Below, piece by piece: positions 2,932 through 31,007 of a stretch of 64,000 bases of DNA. Position numbers and translations under genes: made by a program. The first letter of the stretch is position 1. Each line of letters begins with the position of its first letter. This DNA comes from Gemmataceae bacterium (GTDB lineage Bacteria > Planctomycetota > Planctomycetia > Gemmatales > Gemmataceae): assembly GCA_025055795.1 (NCBI GenBank), contig JANWVV010000005.1:1-64000 (forward strand), read 5' to 3'. The notes under the pieces are model-generated. The model ran no database searches and was not told where the DNA came from. It saw only the letters and a list, made by a program, of their open reading frames with translations.

Positions 2932-5292
2932 TCAGCGTGGACGACGCGTAATTATCCGGAAGGGGGCCTCGGCCACCAATAACGTTTTTTCCCCATGCGA
3001 GGCAAAACGGACCTTCATCCGTTTAAGGGTGCCATAGCCACTGACAGCCACAACTTGGCCAATGCCAAAATGTTGATGCTGAATGATAGCACCAACTGCC
3101 AAGTCATCGCTGCCGTTTGATGAAACCGAAGAATTGGACTGGGTGGAGGCCGGAGCACTTGCAGACAGGCCGGGAGGGGGTGTTGATGACGATCCATGGG
3201 TTCTGGCCAGGTTTTTGTCGCTAGTTTCAACAGGTGCGGCCCCTACCATGGTAGAAGTGTGTTCACCGCTACTGGCTGTTGGCGTACGGGATTGGTCGCC
3301 GCTTAGATCGTGCCATTCGACCTGGTCACGGGGCAATTCGTCTAAGAAGCCTGAGGGAATAGCGTACAGAATCTTCCCACGGTACTCCCGCAACTGAGCA
3401 TGGCACAGATGCAACTCGCGCATGGCCCGTGTCATGCCGACGAAGCAGAGGCGGCGTTCTTCTTCCAACTCGGCTGGATCATGGAGGGATCGCTCGTGAG
3501 GTAGCAATCCCTCCTCGACGGCCAACATATAGACGACGGGAAATTCCAGCCCCTTGGAGGCATGTAAAGTCATAACGGATACACGGTCGGCTTCGTGATC
3601 CCAACCATCGACTTCGGAGGCCAAGGCTACCTGCTCCAGGAAACCGGCCAGACCGCCTTGCGGGTTCATCTCGTGGTATTGGCGGGCGGCAGTGACCAGT
3701 TCCTGGACGTTGGCCAGCCGCTCCTGATCGTCCGGATCGTTAGAGGATTTAAGCATGTCCTCGTAGCCGCTACGTTGCAGGACCAGGTCGATGATCTCAT
3801 GAGGGGGAAGATGAAGATAACTGCGTAGTTCGGCCAGCAGACGGTAGAAGCTGCTGAGGGCCCGGGCTGCCGCTCCCTTGATGGTTGTGCACTGCCCGAC
3901 TTGTCCTGCAGCGGCCAACAGGGAACAACCCAAAGTGGCGGCAAATTCCCGAAGCCGCTCCACCGTAGCGTCGCCGATACCGCGGGTCGGCACGTTGACT
4001 ATCCGTTCAAAAGCAATATCGTCGGCCGGATTAAGGACCAGACGTAGATACGCCAACACGTCTTTGTTTTCCTTCCGCTCATAGAAGGCAAAGCCCTTGA
4101 CGATCTGGAAGGGAACACCATGGCGCACAAAAGCACTTTCCAGAACGCGGGTGAGGGCATTGATCCGCACAAAAATGGCATGATCGCGATAACGAAAGCG
4201 GCCTGCTTCCACCGTGGCTTTGATTCGCCGTACCACCTGATCGGCTTCTTCCAGCCCGTCGCGGAAGGTCCAGACCCGTACCGGCTCCCCCCACTCGTTG
4301 TCCGTCCGTAATTCCTTCTTTTTACGCTGCCGGTTGTGAGCAATTAGATGATTGGCGGCCGTAATGATCGCCCGCGTGCTGCGGTAGTTACGGGGCAGAT
4401 GGATGACCCGGGCATCCGGAAAGTCCCGCTCGAAATCCAAAATGTTACGAATGTCAGAGCCACGCCACCGGTAGATACTCTGATCGGGATCTCCGACCAC
4501 ACATAAATTGCGGTAATCCTGGGACAAGTGACGGATGATCTCATATTGTGCCACATTCGTATCTTGGTACTCGTCGATGAGGATGTAGCGGTAGCGGTTA
4601 TCCAGTAGGGTCCGTACATCCGGGTGCTCCCGCAGTAGCAGCGCGGGCAGGTAAAGCAGGTCGTCGAAATCAACCGCTTGCATCTGACGCAAGCGGCGGT
4701 CATACAACGGATAAACCTGGGCGACCGCTTGGGAAAAAAAATCCGTGGCTGAACGGGCGTATTCCTCCGGCGAACGGAGCTGATTTTTCGCTTTGCTGAT
4801 GGCAGCACCGATCTGGTCAGGCCGGAACCGGCAATTGTCCCAGCCGACAGCGTCCAGGGTAGCCTTCAGGAACGCCTGGCGGTCGTCCGCATCGTAAATG
4901 GTAAAAGTGGAAGACAGGCCGAGCCGTTCGCCGTACTGTCGCAACAGGCGTACGCCGAAGGAATGGAAGGTGCCGATCCAGACCCGATGTCCTGGGACTA
5001 AACGGTCAACCCGTTGACGCATTTCCTGGGCCGCCTTGTTTGTAAAGGTAATTGCCAGCAACTGCTCGGCCGGAACACCTTGAGTCAGCAGCCAGGCAAT
5101 CCGGCGGGTGATCACCCGTGTTTTGCCGCTACCGGCGCCAGCCAGAACCAGCAGCGGCCCTTCCCCGTGAGTGACGGCCTTTTGTTGCTCCTCATTCAAA
5201 TCAGCTAGTAATTCACCGATGAAAGCGTCGTCTCGACTTCGCTGTGCCATTGCCGGATTGGTAAAACCCCCACCAGTGTGTGCCTGAAACAT
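2932..5292 (-). CDS. pcrA: ATP-dependent 3'-5' DNA helicase PcrA/UvrD
   Basis: 786 residues, a normal length for superfamily 1A UvrD/PcrA/Rep helicases, which act in nucleotide excision repair, rolling-circle replication and removal of RecA or RNA polymerase from DNA. All helicase motifs are visible: Q-motif LNEEQQKAV, Walker A AGAGSGKT (residues 51-58), Ia AITFTNKAAQEM, II LIDEYQDTN, III GDPDQSIYRWRGS, IV RNYRST, V TLHASKGLEF, VI CFVGMTRAM. A poorly conserved linker precedes a C-terminal Tudor-like PcrA tail (HFGIGQVVAVSGYG...MKVRFASHGEKTLL), which favours PcrA over Rep. An internal ATG at 5250 is an alternative start; neither ATG has a strong ribosome site, though GGAG lies 11 bases before 5292. 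Confidence 0.95.
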   Translation of the reverse strand: MFQAHTGGGFTNPAMAQRSRDDAFIGELLADLNEEQQKAVTHGEGPLLVLAGAGSGKTRVITRRIAWLLTQGVPAEQLLAITFTNKAAQEMRQRVDRLVPGHRVWIGTFHSFGVRLLRQYGERLGLSSTFTIYDADDRQAFLKATLDAVGWDNCRFRPDQIGAAISKAKNQLRSPEEYARSATDFFSQAVAQVYPLYDRRLRQMQAVDFDDLLYLPALLLREHPDVRTLLDNRYRYILIDEYQDTNVAQYEIIRHLSQDYRNLCVVGDPDQSIYRWRGSDIRNILDFERDFPDARVIHLPRNYRSTRAIITAANHLIAHNRQRKKKELRTDNEWGEPVRVWTFRDGLEEADQVVRRIKATVEAGRFRYRDHAIFVRINALTRVLESAFVRHGVPFQIVKGFAFYERKENKDVLAYLRLVLNPADDIAFERIVNVPTRGIGDATVERLREFAATLGCSLLAAAGQVGQCTTIKGAAARALSSFYRLLAELRSYLHLPPHEIIDLVLQRSGYEDMLKSSNDPDDQERLANVQELVTAARQYHEMNPQGGLAGFLEQVALASEVDGWDHEADRVSVMTLHASKGLEFPVVYMLAVEEGLLPHERSLHDPAELEEERRLCFVGMTRAMRELHLCHAQLREYRGKILYAIPSGFLDELPRDQVEWHDLSGDQSRTPTASSGEHTSTMVGAAPVETSDKNLARTHGSSSTPPPGLSASAPASTQSNSSVSSNGSDDLAVGAIIQHQHFGIGQVVAVSGYGTLKRMKVRFASHGEKTLLVAEAPFRIITRRPR

Positions 5293-5996
5293 TGGTTCAA
5301 TGTCTCCGTATCTCAGAGTCAGCGTAGTAGCCGGGCTTCAATCGACCGGGTACGACGGATCGCTCATCAGCCCTGGCAGCAATGTCTAAAGACGGTGTGG
5401 TCTGCGCGCTGGCTTCTTGCTGCATACTCCAAACCACACAACAGGTCGGGTTATCACAACCTATGCCTATACCCGGATCAACCAAACAAATTCTACCTAC
5501 ACCGGCTTTGGGGATGCCATGTGAGCTGCAGATATGGTTTGCAACAGTCGGTTGCCTGCTGTACTCACCCGCACCATCTGTTCTAACTGGTCAATCCAGT
5601 CGCGGAACAGGATAACTGCATTTTCGGCACAAATTTACGGAAGCCAGGAGTTTTTCCCACCTTTTACTCCATTTTCCTGCTAATGACCTGACCCAATTGT
5701 TAAGTTAAAAAGTGTTAAAAGATGGGCAAATAATTAACCGCTTTGGTGATGTATCGTCTGTACACCAGAGTTGGCCCTGAAAGTTCTATCCAGAATTTTT
5801 TTGTATTAATCACCACGCACATCATACGTGGAAAAAGGAAGCCAAATGGTACACCAAGCAAAGCAGGAGTACCGCCCCCTCTACTCGCTGCAGGATGAGT
5901 AAACAACTGGGTGCGGTTCACACTGAGAAACTGAGAAAAGGGGCAAAATGCGAGTTGTGCCGGTGTGAGGAATGTGCCGAAACCGGCTCGGTCGCC
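5293..5996. other. Gene-free gap, AT-rich
   Basis: About 700 bases between pcrA and the small zinc-finger gene. The short frames on both strands have no ribosome site or coherent protein features. At 5846 an ATG after AAAAAGGAAG opens an 18-codon frame, too short to call. The pcrA promoter should lie at the left side. Confidence 0.5.
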
Positions 5997-6254
5997 TCAC
6001 ACTCGAGTGGAAGGGAACTTTGCTTTCCAACGGGCCCGCAAAATTTGCTGTAATCGAGCAGCGAATTCGGGTGGTAGAGGATAAGGCTCGCCGGCACGAT
6101 ACAGTTGAATTGTGCCACGAATGGTGTCTACAACAATTTGACAAGGATGACACCCCTCCAAGTGCTCCGCAAACTGCCGGCATTCCACCTGCGATAAATC
6201 GACGGTGCCATCAACATATTCGTTCAAGATCCGTAGTAGTTCATCACATGTCAT
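5997..6254 (-). CDS. Small zinc-finger protein, anti-sigma-factor-like (zf-HC2 type)
   Basis: 85 residues. It starts MTCDELLRILNEYVDG, the typical opening of zf-HC2 anti-sigma zinc-finger domains (Cys3), and continues to HLEGCHPC, giving the H-x3-C-x2-C zinc motif (His31, Cys35, Cys38). Proteins with this fold bind ECF sigma factors and hold them inactive. There is no membrane segment after the finger, so it is soluble. No sigma factor gene is adjacent, so a partner is unknown. The ATG at 6254 is chosen because CAGGG lies about nine bases upstream; a GTG at 6260 would be too close to that site. Confidence 0.75.
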   Translation of the reverse strand: MTCDELLRILNEYVDGTVDLSQVECRQFAEHLEGCHPCQIVVDTIRGTIQLYRAGEPYPLPPEFAARLQQILRARWKAKFPSTRV

Positions 6255-6839
6255 GAGCACTAACCCTGAAGGCGATCATACCAATCAGATCAAATCTTTT
6301 GGAAAAAGATGATCGCTTTCTGCCCTAGGTTACACTCTGAGAGACAAATAGCCAAATACCCTTTGTTGGGTAGCCTCCCGACGACACGTATTGTGGCGAA
6401 AGTTCATCGGGTTTGTAGGGGGGTGCGACTCATTGATGCCTCTGGCAACAATAGTTCATGTTGAGCGTCATTCAACATGACATTTCGATTGACACACTGT
6501 GGTACCCTTTGGCGCTAGGTGCGTCGATAACCTTTCCATCATGTGTGCCATAATAACGTTCCGGAGATTACTCGTGATTGCACGACGGGCAGAGTGACCG
6601 TTTGCTAATTTGATAACACAAATTCGGCTGGGGTATAGCCTAGACGTAGCGGTTTGACTCAAGCGGCGAATTTGGCTAGGGTGCTGCGCCTTTGACAATG
6701 GCCGCAAGGATGCGTTATAGTGAAAAAATGACGAAAGACCCATGGATTTTTTCGGAGCGGCGGCACCGGACAGCGTGCGGTGCGAGAAGGAGAGAATTGT
6801 TCCCTTTGTAGCGAGTCAGGTTCTACGAGGAGGCCGGTC
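6255..6839. other. Divergent-gene gap with a strong inverted repeat
   Basis: 585 bases separating the zinc-finger gene (minus) from the small membrane protein gene (plus), so both promoters should lie here. No convincing gene. The notable element is the inverted repeat at 6456-6480, listed separately. Confidence 0.5.
6456..6480. promoter_or_regulatory. Perfect 9-bp inverted repeat, possible operator or hairpin
   Basis: TCATGTTGA (6456-6464) is followed after a 7-base spacer by its exact reverse complement TCAACATGA (6472-6480); the outermost spacer bases can form one more G-T pair. No T-run follows on either strand, so it is not a standard terminator. Its place between two divergent genes suits a dimeric regulator site or an RNA hairpin. 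Function is inference. Confidence 0.4.
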
Positions 6840-26911: not shown

Positions 26912-27037
26912 ACAGCGGTTATGTACTCAATCAACTTCAATAGAAAGTGCATTACCTGTCTCTTAGCTTGAACATCTGATGGACAAGAGCAGACGGGTTC
27001 TTGACAGATCATCGGAGCGTAATTAGCATCGGCATTT

Positions 27038-27592
27038 GTGAGTGATACTTCGGTAAACCTGTTAGATCGGTTGTGCCGGCAGGGAGATGCCGCGGCCTGG
27101 GGACGTTTTGTGGAGTTGTACGCGCCGTTGGTACATCGTTGGGCCGTCCGCGCCGGTTTGCAATCGGCGGATGCCGCGGATCTGGTTCAGGACGTGTTCA
27201 TAACCGTCTATCGGGAATTGCCCCATTTTAAGTATGATCCGCAAAGGAGCTTTCGGGCTTGGCTGAAGGCGGTGACGTTGAATCTTTGGCGAACAAAGCA
27301 ACGACGTGCCGCCGCATTACCCCTACGCGACACAGAAGAACTACCCGTAGCGGATCCAGCCGCTGCAGTTTGGGAACAAGAGTATCGCGCATGGCTAGTT
27401 GCTCGTGCGTTGAAGGTGATGCAGACGGATTTTGATCCCCACGTCTGGCAGGCGTGCTGGTTGACAGTGGTAGAGGGCCAAGCGGCGGAAGTTGTGGCAC
27501 GTCAGTTGGGAATGAGCATCGGGGCTGTGTATGCGGCCCGCTGTCGGGTCCTGGCGCGGTTACGCGAGGAATTGGCCGGATTGGATCTGTGA
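27038..27592 (+). CDS. ECF-type RNA polymerase sigma factor
   Basis: 184 residues from a GTG start. Region 2 shows WGRFVELYAPLVHRWAVR, then ADAADLVQDVFITVYRELPHF (2.1-2.2) and SFRAWLKAVTLNLWRTKQRR (2.3-2.4). Region 4 shows VVARQLGMSIGAVYAARCRVLARLREEL, the helix-turn-helix that reads the -35 element. The central WQACWLTVVEGQAAEVV is typical of planctomycete ECF factors. A Ser/Thr kinase gene with a zinc finger follows 90 bases downstream; sigma factors linked to kinases in this phylum are known as the ECF-STK groups, which suggests phosphorylation control. The ribosome site is weak. Confidence 0.9.
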   Translation: MSDTSVNLLDRLCRQGDAAAWGRFVELYAPLVHRWAVRAGLQSADAADLVQDVFITVYRELPHFKYDPQRSFRAWLKAVTLNLWRTKQRRAAALPLRDTEELPVADPAAAVWEQEYRAWLVARALKVMQTDFDPHVWQACWLTVVEGQAAEVVARQLGMSIGAVYAARCRVLARLREELAGLDL

Positions 27593-27682
27593 TAGCCATT
27601 TTTCTTTTAGATTTTGATGGGCCATTGCGTACTACTCCGCGAAGCCTTGGTGTCATAGTTATCCCCTCTGCTGGAGATGCCG

Positions 27683-29935
27683 ATGCCCACCCTGTCTCCC
27701 TGCCCGGATGCCGCTGTATTGCAAAATCTTGTTGATGGCCAACTGCCGTCAGACATTCTGGAGGCTCTCGTCAAACATCTCGATCAATGCCACGATTGTG
27801 CCGAGTTGATTCGTGCTCTGGCTGCGCAGTCAACCCAGAACGTTCGCTTGGAAAACACAGAGGAGTTGTCTGTACCCCCGGAGTTGGTGGCGGTGATCGC
27901 CGAACTCCGTCAGCTACCCAATCAGCAGTCGACGACCTCAGGGGCAGATCCGTTACAAGAAAGTCAACCGGTGGTCCTGGACAACGGTACCAAGCAGTAT
28001 CAACTTCCGGACAAACTCGAACGAATTGCTCATTATCACATCCGCACGATTTTAGGCCGTGGCGGAATGGGATACGTCTTTCTAGCCCATGATACACACT
28101 TGGACCGTCAGGTGGCCTTGAAGGTCCTGCGACCGGATCTGGCAGCCCGGCGTCAGGCTAAAGAGCGATTTTTGCGTGAGGCCCGCTTGGCAGCCCGCCT
28201 CAAAAGTGAACACATTATCACAATCTATCAGGTGGGGGAAGAAAACGGCATTCCCTTCCTGGCCATGGAGTTGCTGCAGGGATGTACCCTTTACTCCTTG
28301 TTGGAACAAGAAGGCCGAATCGGTTTGGAGCGGGCGGTGCGGATCGCTCGGCAGATTGCCCAAGGCTTGGCCGTAGCCCACGAGCACGGGCTGGTACATC
28401 GGGATGTCAAACCCGGCAACATCTGGATTGAGCCCCATAATGGCGAACGGGTGAAGTTGCTAGATTTCGGTCTGGCCCGCCTTCACGAGGAAGGGGAATC
28501 GCTGACGGAAACGGGCGCTATTCTGGGTACGCCTGCCTACATGGCCCCCGAGCAGGCCTGCGGCGAGAAGGTCGACGCTAGGGCTGATCTGTGGAGCCTG
28601 GGTGTCATTCTTTACGAGTTGACCACTGGCCGTAAGCCCTTTACTGGTTCCAATACTCTGGCCGTTTTATCCCGCATTGCTCTGGAGCAGCCGGTGCCGC
28701 CCCAAGCACTGAATCCCGATTTGCCCTCGGAGCTGTCCGCACTGATCTTGCGACTGCTAGAAAAGGAGCCTGCGAAGCGTCCTGCCTCAGCCCGGGAAGT
28801 CATTGCCGTACTTACTGCCATCGAATTATACGGTTCGATAGAGACGCTGCCCAATACAAATACCCCTCCATTGATCCAGACGCCAATGTTCCCATCGCCT
28901 GATCAGAATGAACGCACGCCTTTGGCTCAGCCCACACGACGGCAGCCACGCTGGTGGGCCACGGCTGCTATTGGGCTAGTCTTTGCGCCACTGGCTTATT
29001 TTCTCGGTGGGGCGTTGATCCGCATCGCAACCAATCAGGGCGAGTTGCTGGTGGAGGTAGACGATCCCACCATCGAATTACGCATCGTCCAAAATGGCGT
29101 GATTGTGCAAGACCGCACGAGTCAACGCGAGTTTACTCTCACGGCTGGTAAAGGAGAAATTGAGGTTTATGAGAAAAATGGTGTCGGGCCGCTTACTACT
29201 CGGCAGTTTGTCCTTAATCGTGGTGGCAAGACCACGGTCCGAGTCAGTTGGCAAGAGCTGGCCGATGCGCGTAAGTCCGTGCCAGCACCCCCGCCCTCGG
29301 ACAAAAAGACGGCGGAGGACGATCAAAGTCCCGACCGGCGAGCCGCTCTGTATGTTATTTCTGTCGGCGGCGTAGTCCATGTTGAAGGCATTCCTCAGAC
29401 CATAACTGACGCAAAGCAATTACCAACGGGGAACTTCCGCCTCACGCAGGTTGGGTTGCGGAACTGCTACAGAATGTCAAGTGACGGGCTCGCTGTTTTT
29501 AGCGAATGCCAACATCTCACGCATCTATACATGTTTGAAACGGGGGCGACGGATGCCGGGCTGGCTCACTTCAAAAAATGCAAGAACTTGATCATGCTTG
29601 AAGTATCGGTAAACGCTGGGGTTACAGATGCGGGATTAGCACACTTCAAAGGCTGTCCCCTCAAACATCTTGGCGTGGCTAGCACCCAAGTGACGGATGC
29701 CGGGCTGGCTCATTTCCAAAACTGCAAGGAGCTGGAATATATCGATTTCAGTAATACGTCGGTGACAGATGTTGGCCTGGCATATTTCAAGAATTGTCAG
29801 CACCTAGGCCATCTTTCTCTGCAGAGTACCAAAATCAGTGATGCCGGTCTGGTTCATTTTGCTCAGTTTATACTTGCTCGAGTTGTCACAAACTGCAGTC
29901 ACGGATGCGGGGCTAGCACATTTCAAGGAATGTAA
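27683..29935 (+). CDS. Membrane Ser/Thr protein kinase with N-terminal zinc finger and LRRs, truncated by frameshift
   Basis: 750 residues as read. Order: zinc-finger H-x3-C-x2-C in VKHLDQCHDC (about 34-41), as in anti-sigma domains; Hanks-type kinase (about 118-385) with GRGGMGYVFLA, catalytic VALKVL Lys, HRDVKPGN, DFGLA, GTPAYMAPEQ and DLWSLGVILYELTTG; one membrane helix (about 430-455); then an outer part with leucine-rich repeats of the 24-residue 'TDAGLAHFKxCxxLxxL' type. After DAGLVHF the frame shifts and ends in unrelated residues. ATG 27683 is preferred because GGAG ends six bases upstream; ATG 27677 touches the site. It probably works with the upstream sigma factor. Confidence 0.85.
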   Translation: MPTLSPCPDAAVLQNLVDGQLPSDILEALVKHLDQCHDCAELIRALAAQSTQNVRLENTEELSVPPELVAVIAELRQLPNQQSTTSGADPLQESQPVVLDNGTKQYQLPDKLERIAHYHIRTILGRGGMGYVFLAHDTHLDRQVALKVLRPDLAARRQAKERFLREARLAARLKSEHIITIYQVGEENGIPFLAMELLQGCTLYSLLEQEGRIGLERAVRIARQIAQGLAVAHEHGLVHRDVKPGNIWIEPHNGERVKLLDFGLARLHEEGESLTETGAILGTPAYMAPEQACGEKVDARADLWSLGVILYELTTGRKPFTGSNTLAVLSRIALEQPVPPQALNPDLPSELSALILRLLEKEPAKRPASAREVIAVLTAIELYGSIETLPNTNTPPLIQTPMFPSPDQNERTPLAQPTRRQPRWWATAAIGLVFAPLAYFLGGALIRIATNQGELLVEVDDPTIELRIVQNGVIVQDRTSQREFTLTAGKGEIEVYEKNGVGPLTTRQFVLNRGGKTTVRVSWQELADARKSVPAPPPSDKKTAEDDQSPDRRAALYVISVGGVVHVEGIPQTITDAKQLPTGNFRLTQVGLRNCYRMSSDGLAVFSECQHLTHLYMFETGATDAGLAHFKKCKNLIMLEVSVNAGVTDAGLAHFKGCPLKHLGVASTQVTDAGLAHFQNCKELEYIDFSNTSVTDVGLAYFKNCQHLGHLSLQSTKISDAGLVHFAQFILARVVTNCSHGCGASTFQGM

Positions 29936-31007
29936 CAATCTGAGACGTCTGGCATTATTCGGCACCCGGATCAGTGACGCCGGTCTGGCCTATTTCAAGG
30001 GATGCCGAGAACTGGAACATCTCGATGTGTCCCGGAATCAGATAACCGATGCAGGGCTGGTCCACTTCAAGGAATGTCGCAAGCTAGCGTGGCTCGATGT
30101 GAGTAAAACTCAGATAACGGATGCCGGTTTAGCTCATTTCAAGGATTGCCAAGGATTGACAGGGCTGGACGTATCCTCCACAGCGGTAACCGATCTTAGT
30201 TTGCCCTGGATCTGTAGTCTGGGCGGTCTGCATTATCTTGGTCTGGACAACACGCGTATCTCCCGTGAGGGTTACGAGCGAGTGAAAAGCCAGTATCCGC
30301 ATCTGAACATCAAGTGGTCAGAACGCAATCATACTGCGGCGTTGCAGGTTCTCAAAGCAGGAGGAGAGGGCTGGATTGTCATTCCAGAACTGGGTCACAC
30401 GCAGGCCGTGACCAAGGAGGAACACCTGATCTGGCCACGGTTTCAGTTGCGTCGCGTTAAGCTGCAGGGTATGCAAGATGCAACAGAACTACTCGGACTG
30501 CTAGGGCAGCTCAATGACCAACGCTTTGATCGTTGCGAGAAGCTGCAGATGGCTGGTGTCAAGGTGTTTGATCTAGCACTTCTCAACGGAATACAGGGGC
30601 TCAAGGAGCTGGAAATCCATGGTTGCTGGCTCGACGACGTTAAACTAGGACGCCTGCCGGCGCTGCCCACTCTTCAGCGGCTGGTTCTCGACGCCAATGA
30701 GATCCGAGCTCCCGGCGTCTTCTTCTTAACCCGGACGCAACCCCAACTGGAGGAATTATCACTGGGTTGTTCCAGCATCGACATCACGGCTCTGATTCAC
30801 CTGCCCGCTTTCAAGAAACTGAAGCATCTATCTGTGGCCACGGCTAATATTGATGATTCCGCCGTCCCGCACCTGGCCAAACTGACCACACTGCAAACAT
30901 TGAACTTACGAGGAACCAAAATAACGGCTGACGGCGTAGCCGCCTTGCAAAAGGCATTGCCCCGGTGTCAGATTGTCTGGGACGGCTCGAAAGAACGTAA
31001 GGAATAG
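29838..31007 (+). pseudogene. Frameshifted 3' part of the kinase-LRR gene
   Basis: An open frame of 389 codons in the +1 frame relative to the kinase. It resumes the same repeats at LELSQTAVTDAGLAHFKEC and continues through four or five more 24-residue LRRs. A further LRR-like domain follows, ending with LRGTKITADGVAALQKALP, a common ending for such receptors. The first ~13 residues (from GTG 29838) are not repeat-like, and no ribosome site is present. Aligning repeats, eight bases are missing from one repeat at 29861-29876, which would explain the frame change. An intact product would have about 1,110 residues. It could be a true mutation or an assembly error. Confidence 0.75.

Follow-up and report, generated by a model that had tools for sequence, protein, structure and literature searches.

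A Gemmataceae ECF sigma factor gene adjoins a probable one-protein anti-sigma, kinase, and leucine-rich repeat receptor split by an 8-bp loss

The 64,000-nucleotide window analyzed here, from a Gemmataceae bacterium (contig C223 of a 4.41-Mb host genome assembled in 267 contigs), carries at positions 27038–31007 a gene for an extracytoplasmic function (ECF) sigma factor followed by that of a predicted transmembrane receptor. We judge it likely, on balance, that this receptor controls its neighboring ECF as a single polypeptide, and that it has been split here by an 8-bp loss, probably a recent deletion. The initial annotation had described an ECF gene and then a kinase with an anti-sigma-like finger, a membrane helix, and leucine-rich repeats (LRRs), an arrangement that domain matches and hydropathy bore out. 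The locus spans two long open reading frames (ORFs) after the sigma factor gene and is laid out as follows.

27038–27592, forward strand: ECF sigma factor gene, 184 aa, GTG start, acidic sigma2.2 motif DAAD intact
27677–29935, forward strand: ORF1, the finger-kinase-transmembrane-LRR receptor, 752 aa in its present state, with the last ~24–25 codons out of register
27683–27925, forward strand: predicted N-terminal zinc-type class I anti-sigma domain of ORF1, from ligand conservation, profile homology, and predicted helices
27701–27703 (C9), 27776–27778 (H34), 27788–27790 (C38), and 27797–27799 (C41), forward strand: putative zinc ligands of the ORF1 finger
28034–28795, forward strand: PknB-like Ser/Thr kinase domain with motifs GRGGMG, ALK, HRDVKPGN, DFG, and APE
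28964–29026, forward strand: single transmembrane helix of ORF1, residues about 430–450, with a hydropathy maximum of 2.05 at residues 430–448
29030–29260, forward strand: juxtamembrane extracytoplasmic segment (NQGELLVEVDDP...TTVRV), kept in orthologues (comparison with L031 and L195)
29500–29860, forward strand: in-frame part of the LRR array, in 24-residue units, from repeat spacing and LRR matches
29861–29876, forward strand: the break, at which one LRR has 16 bp instead of 24, from base reading and repeat spacing, with a junction unique in the genome
29877–30317, forward strand: LRR array carried on in the +1 frame (ORF2, open 29808–31007)
30318–31004, forward strand: conserved C-terminal LRR-like region of the receptor, today in ORF2, from identity to relatives

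The sigma factor matched TIGR02937 (E 2.8e-17, exceeding the cut-off of that model) and Pfam Sigma70_r2 (E 9.9e-14), and its gene ends 84 bp before the 752 codons of ORF1. ECFs of the same type as this gene product are called window-type below. Within ORF1, the Pkinase match covered residues 120–373 (E 4.8e-52), and the N-terminal finger reads HLDQCHDC.

This finger is best described as a predicted zinc-type class I anti-sigma domain, an assignment supported by the conserved spacing of its ligands and by the homology of its family to anti-sigma factors of solved structure. In a MAFFT alignment of 25 N-termini, exactly four residues were invariant, those of C-x24-H-x3-C-x2-C; the H, C, and C had served as the selection criterion, but the upstream C had not. 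Behind the finger, at about residues 45–60, a recurring T or S was seen in roughly half of the relatives. A profile of the 25 fingers matched DdvA (E 6e-7), RslA (3hug, E 4e-6), and RsiW (E 4e-4) in the PDB, so that the anti-sigma likeness first noted from the sequence alone holds up at the level of the family. The match to ChrR, whose fourth zinc ligand has the same spacing as here, was weak (E 0.1). Pfam zf-HC2 matched 24/25 of the finger sequences, and the window protein alone fell just below the curated cut-off of that family (20.4 versus 22.2 bits). In a joint AlphaFold model, the finger formed three helices with a predicted local distance difference test score of about 71–82. The H-x3-C-x2-C signature marks zinc-binding class I anti-sigma domains, though class I domains without zinc are also known (PMC7406223); in the finger family, it is present across helices 2–3. 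Like ChrR, RsrA, RslA, RsiW, and DdvA, the domain is helical, combines this signature with an upstream fourth ligand, and is encoded next to an ECF gene. It differs from them in being fused to a kinase and a large repeat ectodomain, and in that sigma binding is here a prediction.

That the finger is fused to the kinase itself, as the initial annotation had it, stands, but such a fusion is not peculiar to this locus: 43/260 surveyed kinases carry a finger, together with several kinds of sensor. A Pfam scan of ten ECF-adjacent finger kinases found ectodomains made of LRRs, WD40 repeats, DUF1559, laminin-G plus a 3-keto-disaccharide hydrolase domain, or Tudor/SH3-like barrels, or none that could be recognized. 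L155, the second finger kinase of the host genome, has WD40 repeats. As such varied ectodomains lie behind the same finger-kinase part, we regard the locus as belonging to a receptor chassis whose sensors can be exchanged. For the Ser/Thr kinases and ECFs of Gemmataceae, kinase families that are expanded and differ in their repeat domains, WD40 among them, have likewise been described (PMC11032199, PMC8567305), although a term search of both papers returned no mention of an anti-sigma domain. The protein with laminin-G-like and 3-keto-disaccharide hydrolase domains (L037, 5599–8469) suggests carbohydrate sensing or processing.

The proposal of a one-protein receptor that controls its sigma factor holds up as a good model because the finger is found next to an ECF gene far more often than chance would give; together with the anti-sigma homology, this co-occurrence is what recommends it, and sigma binding itself is the part that we infer. 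Among the 39 host-genome kinases with enough upstream sequence, a window-type ECF, of which the genome has only two in total, lay upstream of 2/2 finger kinases versus 0/37 others (p 0.0013), and in loci from other genomes such an ECF stood beside 6/6 finger kinases versus 0/80 others (p 2e-9), p-values that are indicative only because the counts include related loci. In relatives from Gemmatales/Planctomycetota, a window-type ECF was found within 1.3 kb upstream of 15/34 finger kinases versus 10/87 finger-less ones; within 3.5 kb on either strand, the counts were 21/35 and 12/93. The two genes adjoin in the window, in C206, and in most but not all relatives. L222 has two tandem finger kinases with one window-type ECF in between, and in L242 a finger kinase is encoded on the strand opposite to that of an ECF-linked finger-less kinase.

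Several results weigh against such a pairing. As many as 14/35 finger kinases in the relatives have no window-type ECF inside 3.5 kb, and genome G024 has three finger kinases (L224, L238, and L289) and zero window-type ECFs at E ≤ 1e-12; the finger may therefore have partners other than this ECF class. A mirror-tree comparison did not single out the finger, giving a partial r of 0.22 for finger and ECF (p 0.03) versus 0.44 for kinase and ECF (p 0.0008). Alignments A2 and A4, in which MAFFT had set finger rows onto the ECF, were discarded. The joint AlphaFold model, built from the ECF, an in-frame read-through linker, the finger, and the kinase with 14 sequences, reached a predicted template modeling score of 0.50 with no readable contact between finger and ECF, and a fold search with it matched the kinase alone among the 50 best rows. 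On the other side, among the ten window-type ECFs that stand beside finger-less kinases, several have kinase neighbors (L196, L200, L207, L214, and L229) whose N-termini, by eye, look finger-like with the ligands gone.

The correlated divergence of kinase and ECF, like the adjacency of their genes, would suit a different arrangement, in which the kinase activates the ECF by direct phosphorylation, as PknT does EcfP and PknS does EcfK, and the finger is merely a docking domain. ECF groups activated in this way are predicted in planctomycetes (PMC8999054). We nevertheless consider this quite unlikely. ECFs shown to be phosphorylation-activated by a kinase do so without the acidic DAED motif (PMC8999054, PMC8103513), and this motif has not been lost from the sigma2.2 region here: the window ECF has DAAD, and the ECFs paired with finger kinases, all of window type (23/23), have D-x2-D in 22/23 cases and DAEN in the remaining one. 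Among ECFs more distant than these, each of them next to a finger-less kinase, 11/17 instead have xTALVH at the sigma2.2 site. Since DAAD or D-x2-D is kept at finger loci versus xTALVH at finger-less ones, we favor inhibition by the finger over direct phosphorylation of the ECF; the homology of the finger to inhibitory anti-sigma domains also speaks against a mere docking role. The comparison with ECF43 runs along the same lines. The ECF43 pairs (EcfP-PknT and EcfK-PknS) and the predicted planctomycete groups ECF59/61/62/217 share with this locus an ECF gene that adjoins a Hanks-type kinase gene. In ECF43-type pairs, uncharged or phosphorylatable residues replace DAED and the adjacent Ser/Thr protein kinase comes without an anti-sigma factor (PMC8999054, PMC8103513), whereas this locus has DAAD and an adjacent kinase with a built-in anti-sigma domain.

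Judging from these motifs, the xTALVH loci appear to be a second, separate class of ECF-kinase pair. The full motif, xTALVHE/D, was seen beside finger-less kinases in L198, L225, L255, L278, L285, L287, L296, L298, L304, L310, and L311. Kinases of these loci often share another N-terminal segment, ALE...ERAAYLDEAC...LR..VE.LL..H...G.FL.

For finger-bearing loci, we infer a model that runs from sigma binding through sensing and phosphorylation to the consequence of the break. The cytoplasmic N-terminal zinc-type class I anti-sigma domain would bind and silence an intrinsically competent, DAAD-bearing ECF, with the PknB-like kinase placed between this domain and the membrane helix. An extracytoplasmic LRR ectodomain would sense a signal, which would be relayed via the kinase to the anti-sigma domain, most likely by autophosphorylation or conformational change, and this relay would free the sigma factor. 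In Mycobacterium tuberculosis, PknB phosphorylates separate anti-sigma factors and thereby frees their ECFs (PMC8999054, PMC13147305). By analogy, the simplest model for the locus would be a single-chain version of that relay: the kinase fold is that of PknB, but PknB and the anti-sigma factors of zinc-regulated ECFs (such as RshA) are two separate proteins, and here one polypeptide would hold both. More tentatively, and with the odds somewhat against it, there may be a widespread planctomycete class of one-protein receptors in which an ectodomain (LRR, WD40, DUF1559, or lectin-like) triggers ECF release by phosphorylation in cis of the receptor's own anti-sigma domain. If true, such a class would merge anti-sigma control with control of ECFs by Ser/Thr protein kinases.

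Anti-sigma domains, ECF-kinase pairs, and planctomycete kinases with repeats are each already known. In the literature searched, no description was found of their combination in a single polypeptide that is paired with a distinct class of ECF, though an earlier description is possible. An ECF encoded next to a kinase is commonly taken to be switched on by direct phosphorylation; judging from this locus and its relatives, a considerable share of planctomycete ECF-kinase pairs may instead use anti-sigma control built into the polypeptide that also carries the kinase. Simple sequence features would separate the two classes, one having the finger and D-x2-D and the other xTALVH and no finger, and the receptor design would be modular and testable, with the ectodomain alone exchanged. 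The frame break is by itself of minor interest.

That break could be located to the base. Copies in the LRR array are spaced by 72 bp or multiples of it, with the sole exception of 29819 to 29883 (64 bp); HF ends at 29860 and LELSQT begins at 29877, leaving 16 bases in place of eight codons. The 8-bp loss that the initial annotation deduced at 29861–29876 is therefore exact, and the repeats do run on in the +1 frame, as it stated. ORF2 is open over 29808–31007 with no other stop for about 380 codons, and it contains further LRRs (LRR_6, E 2.1e-20) and a C-terminal stretch of 229 residues with 61% identity to the orthologue G038/L031 (E 3e-91), 47% to G035, and 46% to G001. With these LRRs and this degree of identity, the frame reflects genuine coding history rather than chance.

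Uninterrupted homologues, for which the initial annotation had proposed a search at ~1,110 residues, do exist. In L031 (Gemmatales metagenome-assembled genome SKYG27; sequence identical to L112 and G038 C174), finger, kinase, transmembrane helix, LRRs, and C-terminal region lie in one frame of 988 codons counted from the finger methionine; its kinase is 73% identical to that of the window, and an ECF gene, cut by the contig end, lies directly upstream. The L195/G035 receptor is continuous over 1,212 aa from stop to stop, and the L205/G001 receptor over 1,124 aa, though the latter has no finger ligands. Given these relatives, the break is private to the host genome or its assembly.

An artefact of assembly or strain mixture, with the organism making a single receptor of about 1,110 residues, is accordingly a serious alternative, if one we rate as falling short of probable. 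It would fit an assembly in 267 contigs, relatives that are in frame, and an ORF2 that is well conserved and stop-free for about 380 codons. Against it, a loss of 8 bp is not the kind of change that homopolymer errors produce, and misassembly by repeat collapse is unlikely, since the junction 21-mer has no second match in the genome even when 3 mismatches are allowed, and the longest k-mer overlapping the break with another copy in the window measures only 11 nt. Window LRR copies are 61–73% identical to the reference copy. A search for a local source copy of the junction bases found none, nor were plasmid homologues of the LRR part of the receptor found. We favor a real recent deletion or a minority strain variant as the best fit to the sequence.

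If the deletion is real, the receptor might be a degrading pseudogene on its way to being lost, in which the LRRs no longer matter. The frame is indeed broken in the middle of the ectodomain, but we think this rather unlikely, with all upstream domains and motifs intact and ORF2 open and conserved; for the same reasons, any loss of the receptor must be very recent. In its present form, the truncated protein keeps the finger, kinase, transmembrane helix, and first LRRs, ends in about 24 out-of-register residues, and lacks both the distal LRRs and the C-terminal region that relatives conserve. In terms of the single-chain relay, the break would leave the anti-sigma, kinase, and transmembrane part intact and take away the distal part of the ectodomain. 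If the ectodomain is the sensor, the truncated receptor would probably be signal-blind or stuck in one state, with the ECF still tethered. An ATG at 29841 in the +1 frame would let ORF2 start MPVWFILLSLYLLELSQT (window 29841–29900), a stretch that resembles a hydrophobic leader only because the frame happens to be shifted; export of a separate LRR fragment can be imagined but has no support.

We also considered whether the break is a functional switch, by repeat slippage (phase variation, as the initial annotation had suggested) or by a programmed +1 frameshift. What speaks for this is a second LRR receptor, the ECF-linked finger-kinase-LRR gene of L197 (G036:C360, around 4200–4250), which is also broken within its array, so that 2/31 surveyed kinases with at least three LRRs have interrupted arrays versus interrupted kinase domains in 1 of about 260, a weak hint that LRR arrays are fragile and a biased comparison, as the sample was picked by similarity. 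We nevertheless regard a switch as very improbable. The two breaks lie at different sites and are of different sign and size, that of L197 being an apparent ~14-bp insertion that looks like a partial duplication among near-identical repeats. The window has no slippage tract: a tandem-repeat finder reported nothing at the break, no near-identical tract lies there, and the hypermutable repeat tract of phase-variable genes is absent, so the slippage proposal is not supported. As for programmed frameshifting, most homologues have continuous frames, and L031, L195, and L205 each keep a single uninterrupted frame, so that no frame change is conserved at the same site; a +1 shift would, moreover, still leave a shortened repeat. 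A kinase domain split across two frames was seen in L218 (about 5750–6471, minus strand, genome G028).

Regulatory elements were sought as well. An Rfam scan of the window found no family, and the motif of an ECF-type autoregulatory promoter was matched in 4/33 regions upstream of window-type ECF genes, compared with 1.9 in shuffles, and not in the window; such a promoter was rejected. Sigma70-like matches occur in this region at the frequency expected by chance; one of them, TTGACA-17-TAGCAT at 27001–27029, ends 9 bp before the GTG start of the ECF gene and would leave its message nearly leaderless.

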